Assembly: GCA_026400375.1 (NCBI GenBank)
Contig: JAPLPG010000329.1
Coordinates: 1 to 64,000, forward strand
Source of the DNA: Novosphingobium sp.
GTDB lineage: Bacteria > Pseudomonadota > Alphaproteobacteria > Sphingomonadales > Sphingomonadaceae
Direction: 5' to 3'
DNA: 64,000 bases
This document shows, piece by piece, positions 374 through 60,740 of the stretch (the first letter of the stretch is position 1; every line of letters begins with the position of its first letter). Under the pieces are notes generated by a model that saw nothing but the letters and a program-made list of their open reading frames with translations, did no database searches and was not told the origin of the DNA. The translations under genes and the position numbers were made by a program.

Positions 374-1186
374 TCAGGCCCCTCCGCCAGCGTTGGGTGC
401 GGCAAAGACGCGGTCGAACACCTGTGTCATCGCGCCGCCTTTCCAGATCCACGCGGTGTGGTGGCGGCTGCCATCGGGCAGTACGGTGGAGCGCCAGGCC
501 AGGCTGCCATCGCGCGATTGGCCGGTCTTGCTGTCAGCCCCGGCACGTTCGGTGCTGGTGGGCAACGGCCCGGCCAGCGGCAGCATCGGCGCGTCCTTGC
601 TCATCTGCTTGCGCCGTTCATCGCGTTCGCGCTTGCTGCCGGGCTGCGGCGCCGGATCGCCGTCCGGCCTGCGCCGCACCGGACAATCGGCCACGGTGCC
701 CTGCACCCAATCGACTTCGGGCAGGGCCCTGGGCAGCCGGGCGCCATCATCGAGCACCCATTTCCATGGCGTCTTGCCTTTGACCTGGCGCTCCCACACG
801 GTCAGGTATTCGCCGTTGCCGCCGTCCGCATAGGTCACTCCGCCGATCGTCAGGCCCGCCGATCCGTCGCACGCGATCCACGCCGCGCGCGCGGCCCATC
901 GGGCAGGCTCGGCAGGGTCCTTGCGGTCCTTCAGCAAGTCCCTGGCGGCAATGCGCCGGCCGTTGAACATTTCGGCTGTGTCGGCCGCGGTCTCGCGGAA
1001 CGCGGTCCATTGTCCCTGCTCCCGCGCAAGGCGGGCAAGGGCGATGTCTGCCGCGATCAAGGCGCTGGGGTTGGCATAGGCGCGCTGTGGGCGGCCGGGG
1101 CCGGCTTCGCCTTCTCGCGGGGGGCCGGGTTGTGCCAGCAGCGGGGTGGCGCTCAGCAGCAAGGCGAGGGAAAGAAGGCGCTTCAT
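374..1186 (-). CDS. secreted hypothetical protein (N-terminal signal peptide)
   Basis: ORF with signal peptide MKRLLSLALLLSATPLLAQ; follows the marC-like gene on the same strand. Confidence 0.7.
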   Translation of the reverse strand: MKRLLSLALLLSATPLLAQPGPPREGEAGPGRPQRAYANPSALIAADIALARLAREQGQWTAFRETAADTAEMFNGRRIAARDLLKDRKDPAEPARWAARAAWIACDGSAGLTIGGVTYADGGNGEYLTVWERQVKGKTPWKWVLDDGARLPRALPEVDWVQGTVADCPVRRRPDGDPAPQPGSKRERDERRKQMSKDAPMLPLAGPLPTSTERAGADSKTGQSRDGSLAWRSTVLPDGSRHHTAWIWKGGAMTQVFDRVFAAPNAGGGA

Positions 1187-1264
1187 GGCGCCGGTCTAGC
1201 CGATGGGTTGCGCGATGCCCACCCCGTCTGCCGTGGTGGGTCACAAAGAGCGGAACCCCGAGCC

Positions 1265-1333
1265 GCTCATGCTGAGCCTGTCGAAGCACCTTGCGCGGTG
1301 CCAGCGTCCTTCGACTGGCTCAGGACGAGCGGG
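1265..1333. repeat. intergenic inverted repeat, GCTCATGCTGAGCCTGTCGAAG / CCTTCGACTGGCTCAGGACGAGCGGG
   Basis: Two arms are near-perfect inverted complements separated by about 21 bp; same family as the element in ileS at 43806..43868. Confidence 0.85.
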
Positions 1334-1372
1334 AATTTGCCGGGGGGCGGTGGCGCAGAAGCTGATCGCGCC

Positions 1373-2266
1373 TCAGACCGCGTCCGCAGCCAGGTCCAGC
1401 CCGGCGTTGCGATAGGCCGCGACCAGGGCGTTGCGCAGCAGCACGGCAATCGTCATCGGCCCGACTCCGCCGGGTACCGGGGTGATGGCCCCCGCGACGG
1501 CGGCGGCGCTGGCATAGTCGACATCGCCGACCAGCCGCGTCTTGCCCTCTGCCGCGCCCGGCACGCGGTTGATGCCAACGTCGATCACGGTCGCGCCGGG
1601 CTTGATCCAGTCACCCTTGACCATTTCCGGGCGGCCCACGGCGGCCACCACGATATCGGCGCGGCGCACCACATCGGCCAGATCCTGCGTGCGGCTGTGC
1701 GCCACGGTGACCGTGCAGCTTTGCGCGATCAGCAGTTGCGCCATCGGCTTGCCGACAATGTTCGACCGGCCGATCACCACCGCATTCAGGCCCGAAAGGT
1801 CGCCCAGACGGTCCTGCAGCAGCATCAGGCAGCCCAGCGGGGTGCAGGGGACGAAGCCCGGCTGGCCCACGGCAAGACGGCCCGCATTGGTCACGTGAAA
1901 GCCATCGACGTCCTTGTCCGGATTGATCGCGGCGATGACTTTCTGCTCGTCAATATGACGGGGCAGCGGCAATTGCACCAGGATGCCGTCGACCGCCGGA
2001 TCGGCGTTCAGCGCATAGACCATCGCCAGCAGATCGGCTTCCGACGTATCGGCGGGCAGCTTGTGTTCGAAGCTGTTCATGCCCGCTTCCAGCGTGCTCT
2101 TGCCCTTCGATCGGACATAGACCTGGCTGGCCGGGTCTTCGCCCACGAGCACCACGGCCAGCCCCGCCTTGCGCCCGGCCTTTGCCTCGAATTCAGCGGC
2201 GAGTTCGCCCACGCGGGTGCGCAGCGTGGCCGCAAAGGCCTTTCCGTCAATCACGGCAGCAGTCAT
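1373..2266 (-). CDS. folD: bifunctional methylenetetrahydrofolate dehydrogenase / methenyltetrahydrofolate cyclohydrolase
   Basis: [19 protein letters not shown]..., [56 protein letters not shown] motifs. Confidence 0.97.
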
Positions 2267-2282
2267 GAAATAGTCCTGGTGT

Positions 2283-2582
2283 TCAGACGCCTGCGGTGGA
2301 GGCGGCAATGCCGCTCAGCAGGATCGTCAGCAGGTTGAGCCCGATGATCAGCACCATCGGCGAAAAATCGATCGCGCCGGTATCGGGCATGATCTTGCGG
2401 ATCGGGCGCAGCAGCGGTTCGAGAATGGCGTTCAACGCTTTCCAGATCGCCGCAACCGCGTTGTTGTGCATGTTCACGACGTTGAACGAGATCAGCAGGC
2501 CAAGCACGAACTGGACGATCACCACCACGACGATGATGTTGACGAGGTAATTGATCATCGCGATCAGCGTGTACAGCAGCAT
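2283..2582 (-). CDS. YggT family membrane protein
   Basis: 99-aa [37 protein letters not shown]...[31 protein letters not shown] is typical YggT. Confidence 0.9.
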
Positions 2583-4336: not shown

Positions 4337-4426
4337 CTGGATTGCTTCGCTACGCTCGCAATGACGAACCACGGGGGGCTTGGGGCCATTCGTCATTGCG
4401 AGCGGCAAAGCCGCGAAGCAATCCAG
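4337..4426. repeat. intergenic inverted repeat (CGTCATTGCGAG...GAAGCAATCCAG family)
   Basis: CTGGATTGCTTCGCTACGCTCGCAATGACGA facing CGTCATTGCGAGCGGCAAAGCCGCGAAGCAATCCAG; second copy at 61566..61650. Confidence 0.88.
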
Positions 4427-6483: not shown

Positions 6484-6569
6484 CGTCGGCCCGGACTTGA
6501 TCCGGGCCAAGGCTTCCTTTCCAAGGCGCGCCGCAATAAGCCAAGCCCCGGATCAAGTCCGGGCCGACG
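6484..6569. repeat. intergenic inverted repeat (CGTCGGCCCGGACTTGATCCGGG family)
   Basis: CGTCGGCCCGGACTTGATCCGGG (6484..6506) and CCCGGATCAAGTCCGGGCCGACG (6547..6569) are exact reverse complements. Confidence 0.9.
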
Positions 6570-13948: not shown

Positions 13949-14117
13949 CCCTCCCGCAAGCGGGAGGGGGCAGGACAACGCTTTTGCGCCCCCGCGAAGG
14001 GGGGGGCCTCGGCGTTCTAACGGAGCGGTTCAGTAAAACGCCTGAGGCCCCCGCCTTCCGGCAAAGCCGGAAGTTTATCCCGAGCTTGTCGAAGGGCGGG
14101 GGCGCAGCGGTTTAGGG
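13949..14117. repeat. composite intergenic palindromic repeats (CCCCTCCCGCAAGCGGGAGGGGG and neighbours)
   Basis: CCCCTCCCGCAAGCGGGAGGGGG, CTTCCGGCAAAGCCGGAAG and a half copy CGAGCTTGTCGAAGGGCGG between maeB and thiSG. Confidence 0.7.
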
Positions 14118-15224: not shown

Positions 15225-15331
15225 CCCCCTCTTCTTCAGAGGAGGGGGCCGGGGGGTGGTGATTTTTCGCACGTCGCGCTGTCTTCCGCACCACCCCCAA
15301 ACCCCCTCCTCTGAAGAAGAGGGGGCCTTCA
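15225..15331. repeat. long intergenic inverted repeat (CCCCCTCTTCTTCAGAGGAGGGGG family)
   Basis: TCTCCCCCTCTTCTTCAGAGGAGGGGGCCGGGGGGTGGT facing ACCACCCCCAAACCCCCTCCTCTGAAGAAGAGGGGG. Confidence 0.88.
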
Positions 15332-42097: not shown

Positions 42098-42268
42098 GTT
42101 TCGCGCAGAGGCGCAGAGGAAGCAGAGGACGCGGAGAGTTCGTGCTTGCGGCGGAGCCGCCTCCTGATTTCAAACTTTACGTTTTACAATGCGTCGCCGT
42201 GAGAACGGGCCTGAAGGCCGGGCACGACATCTTTGCGATCTCTGCTTCCTCTGCGCCTCTGCGCGAAA
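42098..42268. repeat. intergenic inverted repeat (TTTCGCGCAGAGGCGCAGAGGAAGCAGAG family)
   Basis: Left arm 42098..42130 and right arm 42237..42268 (CTCTGCTTCCTCTGCGCCTCTGCGCGAAA) are inverted; second copy at 60550..60700. Confidence 0.85.
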
Positions 42269-42332
42269 CCCTTCTCCGCACCACGCCAGAAAAATTGCGC
42301 AAAGGCCGCCGCAGCGCTAAGGCCCGCCGGTC

Positions 42333-45317
42333 ATGACCGAACCACGAGACTTCCGCCCGACCGTCTTCCTGCCGAAGACCGATTTCCCGATGAAAGCCGG
42401 GCTTCCCCAGAAGGAGCCGGTGATCCTGCAACGCTGGCAGGACGAGGGGATCTACCAGAAGGTCCGCGAGAGCCGCAAAGGGCGCGAGAAGTTCATCCTG
42501 CATGACGGCCCGCCCTATGCCAATGGCGACATGCACATCGGCCACGCGCTGAACCATATCCTGAAGGACATGGTCTGCCGCACGCAGAGCCTGCTGGGCA
42601 AGGACGCGCCCTATGTGCCCGGCTGGGACTGCCACGGCCTGCCGATCGAATGGAAGGTCGAGGAAGAGTACCGCAAGAAGAAGAAGAACAAGGACGAGGT
42701 TCCGCCGAAGGAATTCCGCGCCGAATGCCGCGCCTATGCCCAGAAGTGGGTCGACGTGCAGCGCGAGCAGCTGAAGCGCCTCGGCATCAATGGCGATTGG
42801 GACAATCCCTACCTGACGATGGATTCGCAGGCCGAGGGCACCATCGTGCGCGAACTGCTGAAGTTTGCTGAATCCGGCCAGCTCTATCGTGGGGCCAAGC
42901 CGGTGATGTGGTCGCCGGTGGAAAAGACCGCGCTGGCCGAGGCGGAGGTCGAGTACGAGGATATCGTTTCGACCCAGATCGACGTCGCGTTCGAGATCGT
43001 TGAGTCGCCGATTTCCGAACTGGTCGGCGCGCATGCGGTGATCTGGACGACGACGCCTTGGACGATCCCGGTGAACCAGGCTTTGGCTTATGGGCCGGAG
43101 GTTGAGTATGTGCTGCTGTCAGTCACGGCGGATACTGTGGGAGTTGGCGCGAACGGAGACAAGCGGGTCAACGAGGTGTTGGCGGCAGCCGGTCTCCCTT
43201 TCCATACCAACGGTATTTCCAAGTTTCTCGTTGCGAAAGACTTGAGGACTTCCTTCGCTGATCGCCTGAACAAGGCAGCAAAGGCGCTCGACTTCGGTGA
43301 CGTTGGAGCACCGTCTCTTCAAGAGTTCATCGATCCGGATTCGGATGTTGATACCTCGATCAAAGGCTCCGACCTCGCCGGAACTATCTGCCGCCACCCG
43401 ATGCACGCGCTCGGCGGGTTCTTCGCCAAGCCGCGCCCCATGCTCCCAGGCGATTTCGTCACCACCGACAGCGGCACCGGGCTTGTCCACATGGCGCCCG
43501 ATCATGGCGAGGACGACTTTGCGCTGTGCAAGGCGCACGGGATCGAGCCGGTCTTCGCGGTGCAGGGCGATGGCAAGTATCGCGAGGACTGGGGCTGGCT
43601 CGGCGGGCAGGGCTCGGTCATCAACCCCAAGTTCAACGCGCCCGATGGGCCGATCTGTTCGGACCTGCGCGAGGCGGGCGGGTTGCTGGCGGCGTCGGCC
43701 GACTACAAGCATTCCTACCCGCATTCGTGGCGGTCGAAGGCCAAGGTGATCTATCGCTGCACGCCGCAGTGGTTCGTGCCGATGGATCGGGCGATTGCCC
43801 CCAGTCCCGCTCAGGCTGAGCTTGTCGAAGCCCCGGACGAGGCCCTTCGACAGGCTCAGGGCGAGCGGACTTTGAGGGAGATCGCCACCAAAGCCATCGC
43901 CGACACGCGCTGGGTGCCCGAAAAAGGCCGCAATCGCATCGGTGCGATGGTTGAAGGGCGTCCGGACTGGGTGCTGTCGCGCCAGCGCGCGTGGGGTGTG
44001 CCGATCACGCTGTTCGTCGATCGCAAGACCGGCCAGTACCTCAACGATCCGGAAGTGAACGCGCACATTGTCGCGGCCGTCATGGCCGAGGGCGTGGATG
44101 CGTGGGACGAGGAACGGGCGCAGGAATACCTGGGCGACAAGTACAGGCTCGAGGACTACGAGCGCGTCACTGACATTCTCGACGTGTGGTTCGATTCCGG
44201 CTCCACCCATGCCTTCGTGCTGGAATCGGGGCGCTGGCCGGACCTGCAATGGCCCGCCAACCTCTATCTCGAAGGGTCTGACCAGCATCGCGGCTGGTTC
44301 CAGTCCTCGCTGCTGGAAAGCTGCGCCACGCGCGGGCGCGCACCTTATGACGCGGTGCTGACGCACGGGTTCACCATGGACCAGAAGGGCATGAAGATGT
44401 CCAAGTCGCTCGGCAACACGATCAGTCCGATTGACCTGATGCGCGATTACGGTGCGGATATCCTGCGGCTCTGGGCACTATCGGTCGATTTCACCGAGGA
44501 CCATCGCATCGGCAAGGAGATCCTCCAGGGTGTTGCCGACCAGTACCGCAAGCTGCGCAACACCTATCGCTACCTGCTGGGCGCGCTGGAAGGCTTCAGC
44601 GAGGATGAACGGCTGCCGGTGGCCGAGATGCCCGAGCTGGAGCAGTACATGCTCGGCCTGCTCGGCAAGCTCGATGCCACGCTGCGGCAGGCCGTCGATG
44701 ACTTCGATTACAACACTTATGTCCGCGCGCTGACCGACTTCTGCAACGAGGACCTTTCGGCGTTCTTCTTCGACATCCGCAAGGACAGCCTCTATTGCGA
44801 TGCGGTCACCGATCCCAAGCGCCGCGCCTATCGCACCGTGCTCGACACGCTGTTCCACGCGCTGGTCCGCTATGGCGCGCCGGTGCTGGTGTTCACGGCG
44901 GAAGAGGTGTGGGCGTCGCGCTATCCGGATGCCGATAGCGTGCATCTGGTGGAGTGGCCGGAAGTGCCTGCCGTTGAACTCGATGAAACGAAGTGGGCTG
45001 AGTTGCGTGCATTGCGTCAGTCTGTGAACGAAGCGATCGAACCGTTGCGCCGAGAAAAGGTGTTGGGATCTGGGCTTGAGGCCAAGGTCGTTGTTGGCAA
45101 TGATACGGCGCATTCTTTCTCTTGGCCTGCACTCACTGAGTTGTTCATCGTGGCGTCAGTTGAAAGAGAACATGGCAACCGAGTGACCGTCGAACGCTCT
45201 ACCGACCACAAGTGCGGCCGTTGCTGGCGCCTGCTTCCCGAAGTCGTGGAAGACGGCGCGCTGTGTGCGCGGTGCGATGACGTGGTGGCGCAGATCGACG
45301 CCGAAGTCGCGGCCTGA
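42333..45317 (+). CDS. ileS: isoleucyl-tRNA synthetase
   Basis: HDGPPYANGDMHIGHALNHILKDM, PGWDCHGLPIEWKVEE, YLEGSDQHRGWFQSSLLES, DQKGMKMSKSLGNTISP, C-terminal CGRCW...CARC zinc ribbon. Confidence 0.97.
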   Translation: MTEPRDFRPTVFLPKTDFPMKAGLPQKEPVILQRWQDEGIYQKVRESRKGREKFILHDGPPYANGDMHIGHALNHILKDMVCRTQSLLGKDAPYVPGWDCHGLPIEWKVEEEYRKKKKNKDEVPPKEFRAECRAYAQKWVDVQREQLKRLGINGDWDNPYLTMDSQAEGTIVRELLKFAESGQLYRGAKPVMWSPVEKTALAEAEVEYEDIVSTQIDVAFEIVESPISELVGAHAVIWTTTPWTIPVNQALAYGPEVEYVLLSVTADTVGVGANGDKRVNEVLAAAGLPFHTNGISKFLVAKDLRTSFADRLNKAAKALDFGDVGAPSLQEFIDPDSDVDTSIKGSDLAGTICRHPMHALGGFFAKPRPMLPGDFVTTDSGTGLVHMAPDHGEDDFALCKAHGIEPVFAVQGDGKYREDWGWLGGQGSVINPKFNAPDGPICSDLREAGGLLAASADYKHSYPHSWRSKAKVIYRCTPQWFVPMDRAIAPSPAQAELVEAPDEALRQAQGERTLREIATKAIADTRWVPEKGRNRIGAMVEGRPDWVLSRQRAWGVPITLFVDRKTGQYLNDPEVNAHIVAAVMAEGVDAWDEERAQEYLGDKYRLEDYERVTDILDVWFDSGSTHAFVLESGRWPDLQWPANLYLEGSDQHRGWFQSSLLESCATRGRAPYDAVLTHGFTMDQKGMKMSKSLGNTISPIDLMRDYGADILRLWALSVDFTEDHRIGKEILQGVADQYRKLRNTYRYLLGALEGFSEDERLPVAEMPELEQYMLGLLGKLDATLRQAVDDFDYNTYVRALTDFCNEDLSAFFFDIRKDSLYCDAVTDPKRRAYRTVLDTLFHALVRYGAPVLVFTAEEVWASRYPDADSVHLVEWPEVPAVELDETKWAELRALRQSVNEAIEPLRREKVLGSGLEAKVVVGNDTAHSFSWPALTELFIVASVEREHGNRVTVERSTDHKCGRCWRLLPEVVEDGALCARCDDVVAQIDAEVAA
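43806..43868. repeat. 63-bp palindromic repeat element lying in frame within ileS
   Basis: CCCGCTCAGGCTGAGCTTGTCGAAG (43806..43830) inverted against CCTTCGACAGGCTCAGGGCGAGCGG (43844..43868); same family as 1265..1333. Confidence 0.88.
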
Positions 45318-47154: not shown

Positions 47155-48459
47155 ATGAAGATCGCGATGGTGGGCTCGGGCTATGTCGGGCTGGTTTCTG
47201 GTGCCTGTTTTGCCGATTTCGGACACGACGTGGTCTGCATCGACAAGGACGAAAGCAAGATTGCACAGCTGCTCGACGGGGTCATGCCGATCTATGAGCC
47301 GGGCCTTGCCGAACTGGTCTCGGCCAACGTCAAGGCGGGGCGGCTTTCGTTCTCCACCGATCTGCCCAGTGCGATCGAAGGCGCGCAGGCGGTGTTCATC
47401 GCGGTCGGCACGCCCTCTCGCCGCGGCGATGGCCATGCCGATCTCAGCTATGTCCGCGCCGTGGCAGAAGAACTGGCGGCAAGCATCAGGACGCCCACGG
47501 TGGTGGTGACCAAATCGACCGTGCCTGTCGGGACCGGTGACGAAGTGGAGCGCATCATTGCCGAAAGCGGCACCGGGGTGCAGTTCGCGGTGGTCTCCAA
47601 CCCCGAATTCCTGCGCGAAGGGGCGGCTATCGGCGATTTCAAGAGGCCCGACCGCATCGTCATCGGTGCCGAGGAAGAATGGGCGCAAGGCGTGATGAAG
47701 GAGGTCTATCGGCCGCTGTTCCTGAACAAGGCGCCGATCCTGTTCACGTCGCGCCGCAGCAGCGAACTGATCAAGTATGCCGCAAACGCCTTCCTCGCGA
47801 CCAAGATCACCTTCATCAACGAGATCGCGGACTTGTGCGAAAAGGTCGGCGGGGATGTGCAGGACGTGGCGCGCGGCATCGGACTGGATGGGCGGATCGG
47901 CGGCAAGTTCCTGCACGCAGGGCCCGGCTATGGCGGATCCTGCTTCCCCAAGGATACGCTGGCGCTGCTCAAGACCGCCGAGGATTTCAACAGTCCGGTG
48001 CGCCTGGTCGAGGCGGTGGTCAAGGTCAACGACAGCCGCAAGCGCGCGATGGGCCGCAAGGTGATCGAGGCGCTGGGCGGCGATGCCCGGGGCAAGCGCG
48101 TGGCGCTGCTGGGCCTGACGTTCAAGCCAAACACCGATGACATGCGCGATGCGCCGTCCATCGCCATCGTTCAGACGCTGATCGATGCCGGGGCACAGGT
48201 CGTGGCCTATGATCCTGAAGGGATGGAGGCCGCAGCCGCAATGATGCCGGACGTCGAGATGGTGACCGGCACGTATGCGGCGGTCGAAGGGGCCGATGCC
48301 GTGGCGCTCGTCACCGAATGGGACGCCTTCCGTGCGCTGGATTTCAACCGGGTGAAGAGCCTGATGAACGCCCCTGTGCTGGTCGATCTGCGCAATGTCT
48401 ATGACCCCGCCGAAGCGCGGGCGGCGGGCTTTGCCTATTCCAGCATCGGGCGGGTCTGA
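47155..48459 (+). CDS. ugd: UDP-glucose 6-dehydrogenase
   Basis: MKIAMVGSGYVGLVSGACFADFGHDVVCIDKDESK, NPEFLREGAAIGDF, GPGYGGSCFPKDTLAL, GLTFKPNTDDMRDAPSI. Confidence 0.96.
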   Translation: MKIAMVGSGYVGLVSGACFADFGHDVVCIDKDESKIAQLLDGVMPIYEPGLAELVSANVKAGRLSFSTDLPSAIEGAQAVFIAVGTPSRRGDGHADLSYVRAVAEELAASIRTPTVVVTKSTVPVGTGDEVERIIAESGTGVQFAVVSNPEFLREGAAIGDFKRPDRIVIGAEEEWAQGVMKEVYRPLFLNKAPILFTSRRSSELIKYAANAFLATKITFINEIADLCEKVGGDVQDVARGIGLDGRIGGKFLHAGPGYGGSCFPKDTLALLKTAEDFNSPVRLVEAVVKVNDSRKRAMGRKVIEALGGDARGKRVALLGLTFKPNTDDMRDAPSIAIVQTLIDAGAQVVAYDPEGMEAAAAMMPDVEMVTGTYAAVEGADAVALVTEWDAFRALDFNRVKSLMNAPVLVDLRNVYDPAEARAAGFAYSSIGRV

Positions 48460-48480
48460 CGGCCCCTTCCGGCTTCCCGC

Positions 48481-60549: not shown

Positions 60550-60700
60550 TTTCGCGCAGAGGCGCAGAGAAAGCAGAGATCGCCAAGAAGAAGAGCTGGC
60601 GGCGCAGCCGCTGACAACGCTCAGTTTCTGGCCATGGAGTGCGGCTTCAAGAGCCAGACTCATCTCTGCGGCCTCGCTTTCCCTCTGCGCCTCTGCGCGA
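60550..60700. repeat. intergenic inverted repeat, second copy of TTCGCGCAGAGGCGCAGAG family
   Basis: TTCGCGCAGAGGCGCAGAGAAAGCAGAGAT facing CTCTGCGCCTCTGCGCGAA. Confidence 0.85.
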
Positions 60701-60740
60701 ACCTCTTTCTCTTTTCTGTTTCACGCCCTACCTGCGTCCC

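Follow-up and report, generated by a model that had tools for sequence, protein, structure and literature searches.

We analysed a 64,000-nt stretch of DNA, here called the window, from the genome of a Novosphingobium sp. (3.70 Mb in 338 contigs, 80.7% complete), in which the gene for isoleucine--tRNA ligase carries a short in-frame palindrome. The translated gene matches TIGR00392, the NCBIfam equivalog for ileS, scoring 785 bits where the cut-off is 621, it is the sole type-matching ileS found in the source genome, and its frame is intact. Its nearest IleS relatives among named genomes belong to Novosphingobium. The features considered below are the following, with F1 denoting the repeat family of the ileS palindrome and sites A to C denoting three segments of the gene:

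1257..1342, no strand assigned: intergenic F1 dimer copy, between two minus-strand ORFs, one at 374..1186 and the other, folD-like, at 1373..2308
14080..14094, plus strand: single diverged F1 monomer at an ORF edge, found by motif match
42333..45317, plus strand: ileS, isoleucine--tRNA ligase, 994 aa, no internal stop (ORF; TIGR00392)
43125..43422 (approximate), plus strand: site B, CP1 region, residues ~265-363, with 22 inverted repeats in relatives
43785..43871, plus strand: site A, the loop from WFVPMD (ending at D485) to TLRE (starting at T513), with palindromes in 56 of 254 relatives' ileS genes
43806..43868, plus strand: in-frame palindromic insert of 63 nt and 21 codons, P492-R512, PAQAELVEAPDEALRQAQGER, a tail-to-tail dimer of the CTGAGCYTGTCGAAG repeat
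43807..43830, plus strand: left repeat monomer of the insert, CCGCTCAGGCTGAGCTTGTCGAAG
43845..43868, minus strand: right repeat monomer of the insert, inverted, reading CCGCTCGCCCTGAGCCTGTCGAAG on the minus strand
44958..44993 (approximate), plus strand: site C, residues ~876-887, with 9 inverted repeats in relatives and empty in the window

A separate inverted repeat with TTCGCGCAGAGGCGCAGAG arms occurs twice in the window (42098..42269 and 60551..60701), one copy lying directly upstream of ileS.

The two arms of the insert, CTGAGCTTGTCGAAG at 43816..43830 and its inverted copy at 43845..43859, are separated at their core motifs by a 14-nt spacer, and a strong hairpin (-43.8 kcal/mol) is predicted for the segment on both strands. 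An earlier note on this DNA had described a 63-bp in-frame palindrome inside ileS, and the 21 codons at 43806..43868, within an ORF that is open throughout, bear this out; the peptide sequence given there is also correct, although it is one residue too long, its leading S being the codon at 43803..43805. A search of Rfam with the element returned no match. An AlphaFold2 model of the window IleS (pTM 0.66, with pLDDT below 50 at residues 493-509 and also in parts of the core) was of too low confidence to tell whether the loop is exposed at the protein surface, and this line was dropped.

Close relatives reveal what the loop looks like when it is empty. In two of them (L062 and L063) the loop reads REAEGGTLREKATKAIAD and is 18 aa long, versus 39 aa in the window IleS, a difference of exactly 21 residues that agrees with the earlier note's view of the segment as extra relative to kin. 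A canonically short loop had likewise been proposed, and the IleRS of S. aureus and P. megaterium have 1-3 residues there; in the readable IleS sampled from other alphaproteobacterial families the loop is also short, with no palindrome. The empty site reads R-EAEGG-TLRE (REAEGGTLREK) in L062 and L063, and nearly so in L120, and the window loop reads R-AIAPS-(21 residues)-TLRE. Because AIAPS recurs in L064, and nearly in L042 and L071, all of which hold another palindrome in the loop, the ileS loop may have been occupied before the present element arrived. Within the tight clade around the window gene, occupants come from three families (F1, F3 and F4, defined below) and some loops are empty. 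Exact F1 copies number 7 and 12 in two empty-site genomes (G193 and G120) and 94 in the source genome.

Those 94 exact copies of the F1 core rise to 122 when one mismatch is allowed, with none for a reversed-pattern control, and in the window five matches with up to two mismatches were observed versus 0.21 expected. The description of a multicopy, mostly intergenic repeat family is thus upheld, the window copy at 1257..1342 being intergenic itself. Forty-two genomic monomers yield the consensus CCGCTCRTSCTGAGCYTGTCGAAGSAYG, and most monomers stand in inverted pairs; dimers elsewhere in the genome measure 70-92 nt from tag to tag, and the ileS copy measures 62. In the stem, two positions flanking CTGAGC..GAAG covary, being paired in 37 and 39 of the 42 monomers (shuffle maxima 31 and 35), with C-G exchanging with G-C at one and T-A with C-G and G-C at the other, and covariation at the third and fourth stem pairs was no higher than in shuffles of the same 42 monomers. 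F1 therefore has the broad hallmarks of a REP, namely an imperfect palindrome of 20-40 nt with a covarying stem, high copy number, a mostly extragenic location and inverted pairing. We considered whether F1 is pre-adapted to being read as protein and rejected the idea, since its dimers keep on average 2.5 of six frames open versus 3.95 of six in shuffled sequence, and F1 is thus not built for translation. The ileS copy may simply happen to fit the frame, or may have been trimmed to fit. Across a sample of F1 sites in the source genome, most fall outside real coding sequences, and only those in ileS and CoaBC lie well inside. The CoaBC gene of the source genome (L319; G000 contig C45, ~47821-48475, minus strand) carries an in-frame tandem F1 cluster, ASTSSARSGSGESTDHDPARPEPVEGAEPVEGAEPVEG, in the linker between CoaC and CoaB, and F1 occupies this interdomain linker in three genomes: the source genome, G027 (L320) and G009 (L332). 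The window also holds palindromes of other kinds, including a CGTC-type REP dimer of the classical alphaproteobacterial type at 4337..4426 (TTCGTCATTGCGAGCG / GCGAAGCAATCCAG) and two long inverted repeats of other families at 6484..6569 and 15225..15325 (CGTCGGCCCGGACTTGATCCGGGCC; CCCCCTCTTCTTCAGAGGAGGGGG).

To place the window gene in context, we compared 254 distinct ileS genes from Sphingomonadaceae and close kin. Recognisable palindromic elements occupy site A in 56 of them and fall into seven motif families: F1, the window's own; F2, GTCTCGACTTCGCTCGACACGAACGG; F3, CCCCTCCCGCTTGCGGGAGGGG; F4, GGTCCCCCTCCCC/GGGGAGGTGGCAGC; F5, CCCCTCCCCTTCAGGGGAGGGG; F6, CCCTCTCCC..GGGAGAGGG; and F7, which comprises CGTC-type REPs. 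Assignment by motif is approximate, two genes match more than one family, and F3 to F6, all C/G-rich, may by their sequences be partly related to one another. Because at least seven palindrome families have entered the same loop in dozens of species, site A is a recurrent landing place, and, judged from sequence, the loop is recurrently colonised in Sphingomonadaceae IleS by putatively mobile palindromes, a pattern that the earlier note had missed. Where copies were counted, the occupant family is multicopy in its own genome, with 83 copies of F2 in G033, 46 of F2 in G036 and 71 of F3 in G011. F1 itself occupies site A in five genomes, in varying orders and frames (LRQAQGER..AQAELVEA in L225, LRQAQDER..QPEPVEG in L194, AELVEA..RPSTGSG in L130), and the conserved thing is therefore not the peptide.

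Site A also holds partial elements: a truncated stub of F2 is left in L207 and half of an F3 element in L216, while in L039 two F3 arms flank an apparent older host loop, EDIPLCQHEIAARAE, as if half-elements had inserted on either side. L039 is the only case in which the spacer between the arms corresponds to the former host loop, and the idea that it does so in general was rejected. Among the 252 genes measured, no palindrome could be recognised in 196, many of which nevertheless have a long loop; in L074 and L084 a non-palindromic stretch of ~120-132 aa occupies site A, with no Pfam match. Long loops of this kind may draw on sequence sources other than palindromes.

Misjoining of the element into ileS of a metagenome-derived contig would suit a repetitive sequence in a genome as fragmented and partial as this one (338 contigs, 80.7% complete). 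However, the frame is intact, the gene gains precisely 63 nt, neither arm is identical to other copies, and many further genomes, near-complete assemblies and named isolates among them, have an occupied site A, all of which makes an assembly artefact highly improbable.

On a FastTree phylogeny built from 866 alignment columns with the loop left out, occurrences and inferred changes per family were 5 and 5 for F1, 9 and 9 for F2, 8 and 8 for F3, 14 and 14 for F4, 6 and 6 for F5, 7 and 6 for F6, and 7 and 5 for F7; because 72 forks are weakly supported, these counts are estimates. The occupied or unoccupied state of site A switches at least 44 times on the tree, and shuffled labels give a mean of 50.7 and a minimum of 47. 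These counts bear on the possibility that true insertions were few and that occupied ileS alleles spread by horizontal transfer or gene conversion. Such spread would account for occupants that differ between very close relatives and for the prefix GCGATTG(C/A)CCC, common to the window and L064/L042, preceding different elements, a pattern that fits replacement at an occupied site. Nevertheless, the number of changes roughly equals the number of occurrences in each family (approximately, given the weak forks), and copies vary in spacer, frame and order, so that we regard allele spread as quite unlikely to be the main explanation.

Strong inverted repeats in ileS genes are confined to a few places. 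Counting as strong those that score at least 14, where the maximum in 40 codon-shuffled genes was 12, we found 73, of which 38 lie at site A, 22 at site B, 9 at site C, 4 upstream of the start and none elsewhere; all 69 within coding sequence thus sit at the three sites. The window's own element scores 12 and was counted by motif, outside the 38, and site B of the window gene contains no inverted repeat. Among named loci, ileS has 25 strong repeats in 69,500 codons and the neighbouring genes of the same loci (ribF, lspA and a DHFR-like gene) have 1 in 42,900 (Fisher p = 1.3e-4, kinship ignored).

This extreme concentration, with 38 of 69 coding inverted repeats in a single loop, is what would be expected if the palindromes recognised the DNA of site A and preferred to insert there. 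The families that use the site differ in sequence, though, their left boundaries are scattered across residues 484-503, insertions also occur in two further segments of ileS and in the linker of CoaBC, and the genomic copies of F1 are mostly intergenic, making target-site specificity unlikely. We consider it similarly improbable that the extra peptide or an mRNA hairpin has been selected for IleS activity or expression. The repeated occupation of site A across Sphingomonadaceae and the strong hairpin predicted on both strands (-43.8 kcal/mol) would suit such an adaptive role, yet the peptides encoded by the differing families, frames and orders are unrelated, close relatives manage with a 5-residue empty loop, and certain long loops are non-palindromic. 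Both readings lose ground because unrelated sequences, frames and boundaries use the same site.

We favour instead, as very probable on sequence grounds, a process in which REP-type dimers insert widely and persist only in tolerant segments of IleS, with both transposition and tolerance deduced from the distribution described above. The 63-nt segment would then be a non-autonomous palindromic REP-type dimer that entered the ileS gene of a Novosphingobium-like lineage without disturbing the frame and is presumably translated and folded as 21 extra residues. Sphingomonad IleS would have three segments that tolerate inserts, with site A the most permissive among them, struck repeatedly by different families in genomes rich in mobile palindromes. 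Survivors would be the stop-free, frame-keeping inserts, with the same insertions elsewhere in ileS purged, and older inserts would be replaced or would decay into ordinary-looking loop sequence.

A search for a dedicated mobiliser among Y1 transposases did not yield a candidate. The source genome (80.7% complete) gave no match to Y1_Tnp (PF01797), no Y1_Tnp gene of the relatives was flanked by F1 (nine genomes searched in all), and no parent transposon that would make F1 a MITE was found among the Y1 transposases examined. The idea of a dedicated Y1 transposase was dropped, as the relatives' genes lie beside other inverted repeats or beside none of the families. Two of these Y1-type transposase genes (L351 and L352, in G033 and G027) stand near inverted repeats containing TTACGGTGACA, which belong to none of F1-F7.

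In-frame palindromes in proteins have hitherto been viewed as oddities, chiefly from Rickettsia, and the independent arrival of about seven families at one homologous position in free-living bacteria offers a replicated natural experiment. Such a system helps to tell tolerance from function, shows where an essential enzyme has permissive loops, and allows an estimate, on the gene tree, of how fast selfish DNA turns into protein sequence. Palindromic inserts also explain the strings LVEA..LRQAQGER, VSTSLDTNG and PSPEGEG in sphingomonad proteins. More tentatively, site A may be a docking site shared by several unrelated mobile palindrome families, at which selfish DNA that successively inserts, is replaced and decays is the main source of the variable IleS loop, a possibility to which we give somewhat less than even weight. 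If this is true, the long loops of 20-46 residues that lack palindromes would be inserts since domesticated, and the loop would document naturally how a protein grows out of non-coding repeats.

The ileS element resembles several known systems in part. REPINs, or BIMEs, are inverted REP doublets of gammaproteobacteria that include a spacer, reach high copy number and are mostly extragenic. F1 likewise forms inverted doublets with a spacer, in many copies and mostly outside genes, but lacks the GTAG tag and had no RAYT partner in our search. The same differences separate F1 from GTAG REPs and REPtrons, its 5' tag being CCGCTC. Among alphaproteobacteria, sphingomonads included, small CGTC/GTAG palindromes that often form dimers have been described. 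Some of them interrupt ORFs, tRNA synthetases of E. litoralis and S. alaskensis among them, and over half of these ORF inserts encode 20-30 aa (Di Nocera et al. 2013; PMC3733652). According to the same paper, CGTC repeats have no known dedicated transposase and consist of a CGTC tag, an 8-9 bp stem starting with A-T, a 4-5 nt loop and a CCA tail, and in the main text a shared insertion site is mentioned only for recB of two Xanthomonas (PMC3733652). The F7 elements at site A of L158, L177 and L190 resemble this layout, unlike the F1 monomer, CCGCTCRTSCTGAGCYTGTCGAAGSAYG, which has neither the A-T start nor the CCA tail and in which the RTS positions fall in the covarying stem. Long perfect inverted repeats are tolerated in coding sequence in mitochondrial genes of Nematomorpha, as passages of another report describe (PMC6649704), although F1 is a dispersed bacterial repeat family from an unrelated lineage. 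The open-licence papers searched make no mention of CTTCGACAGGCTCAG and do not tie isoleucyl-tRNA synthetase to an in-frame palindromic insertion; in-frame palindromes as such are already known, and it is the repeated use of one ileS site by several families that we did not find described in that literature. Another close parallel, already drawn in the earlier note, is with the Rickettsia palindromic elements (RPEs), selfish palindromes that lie in frame in functional genes in a manner compatible with protein function (Ogata et al. 2000, 2002, as cited in passages of PMC10969869). RPEs are ~150 bp long, whereas F1 is a dimer of 62-92 nt with a REP-like monomer of ~28 nt, which by description sets the two apart, and F1 is mostly intergenic and not pre-adapted to coding. 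In its apparent outcome, however, the ileS palindrome is like an RPE: it lies in frame within a gene of functional type, and the frame is kept.
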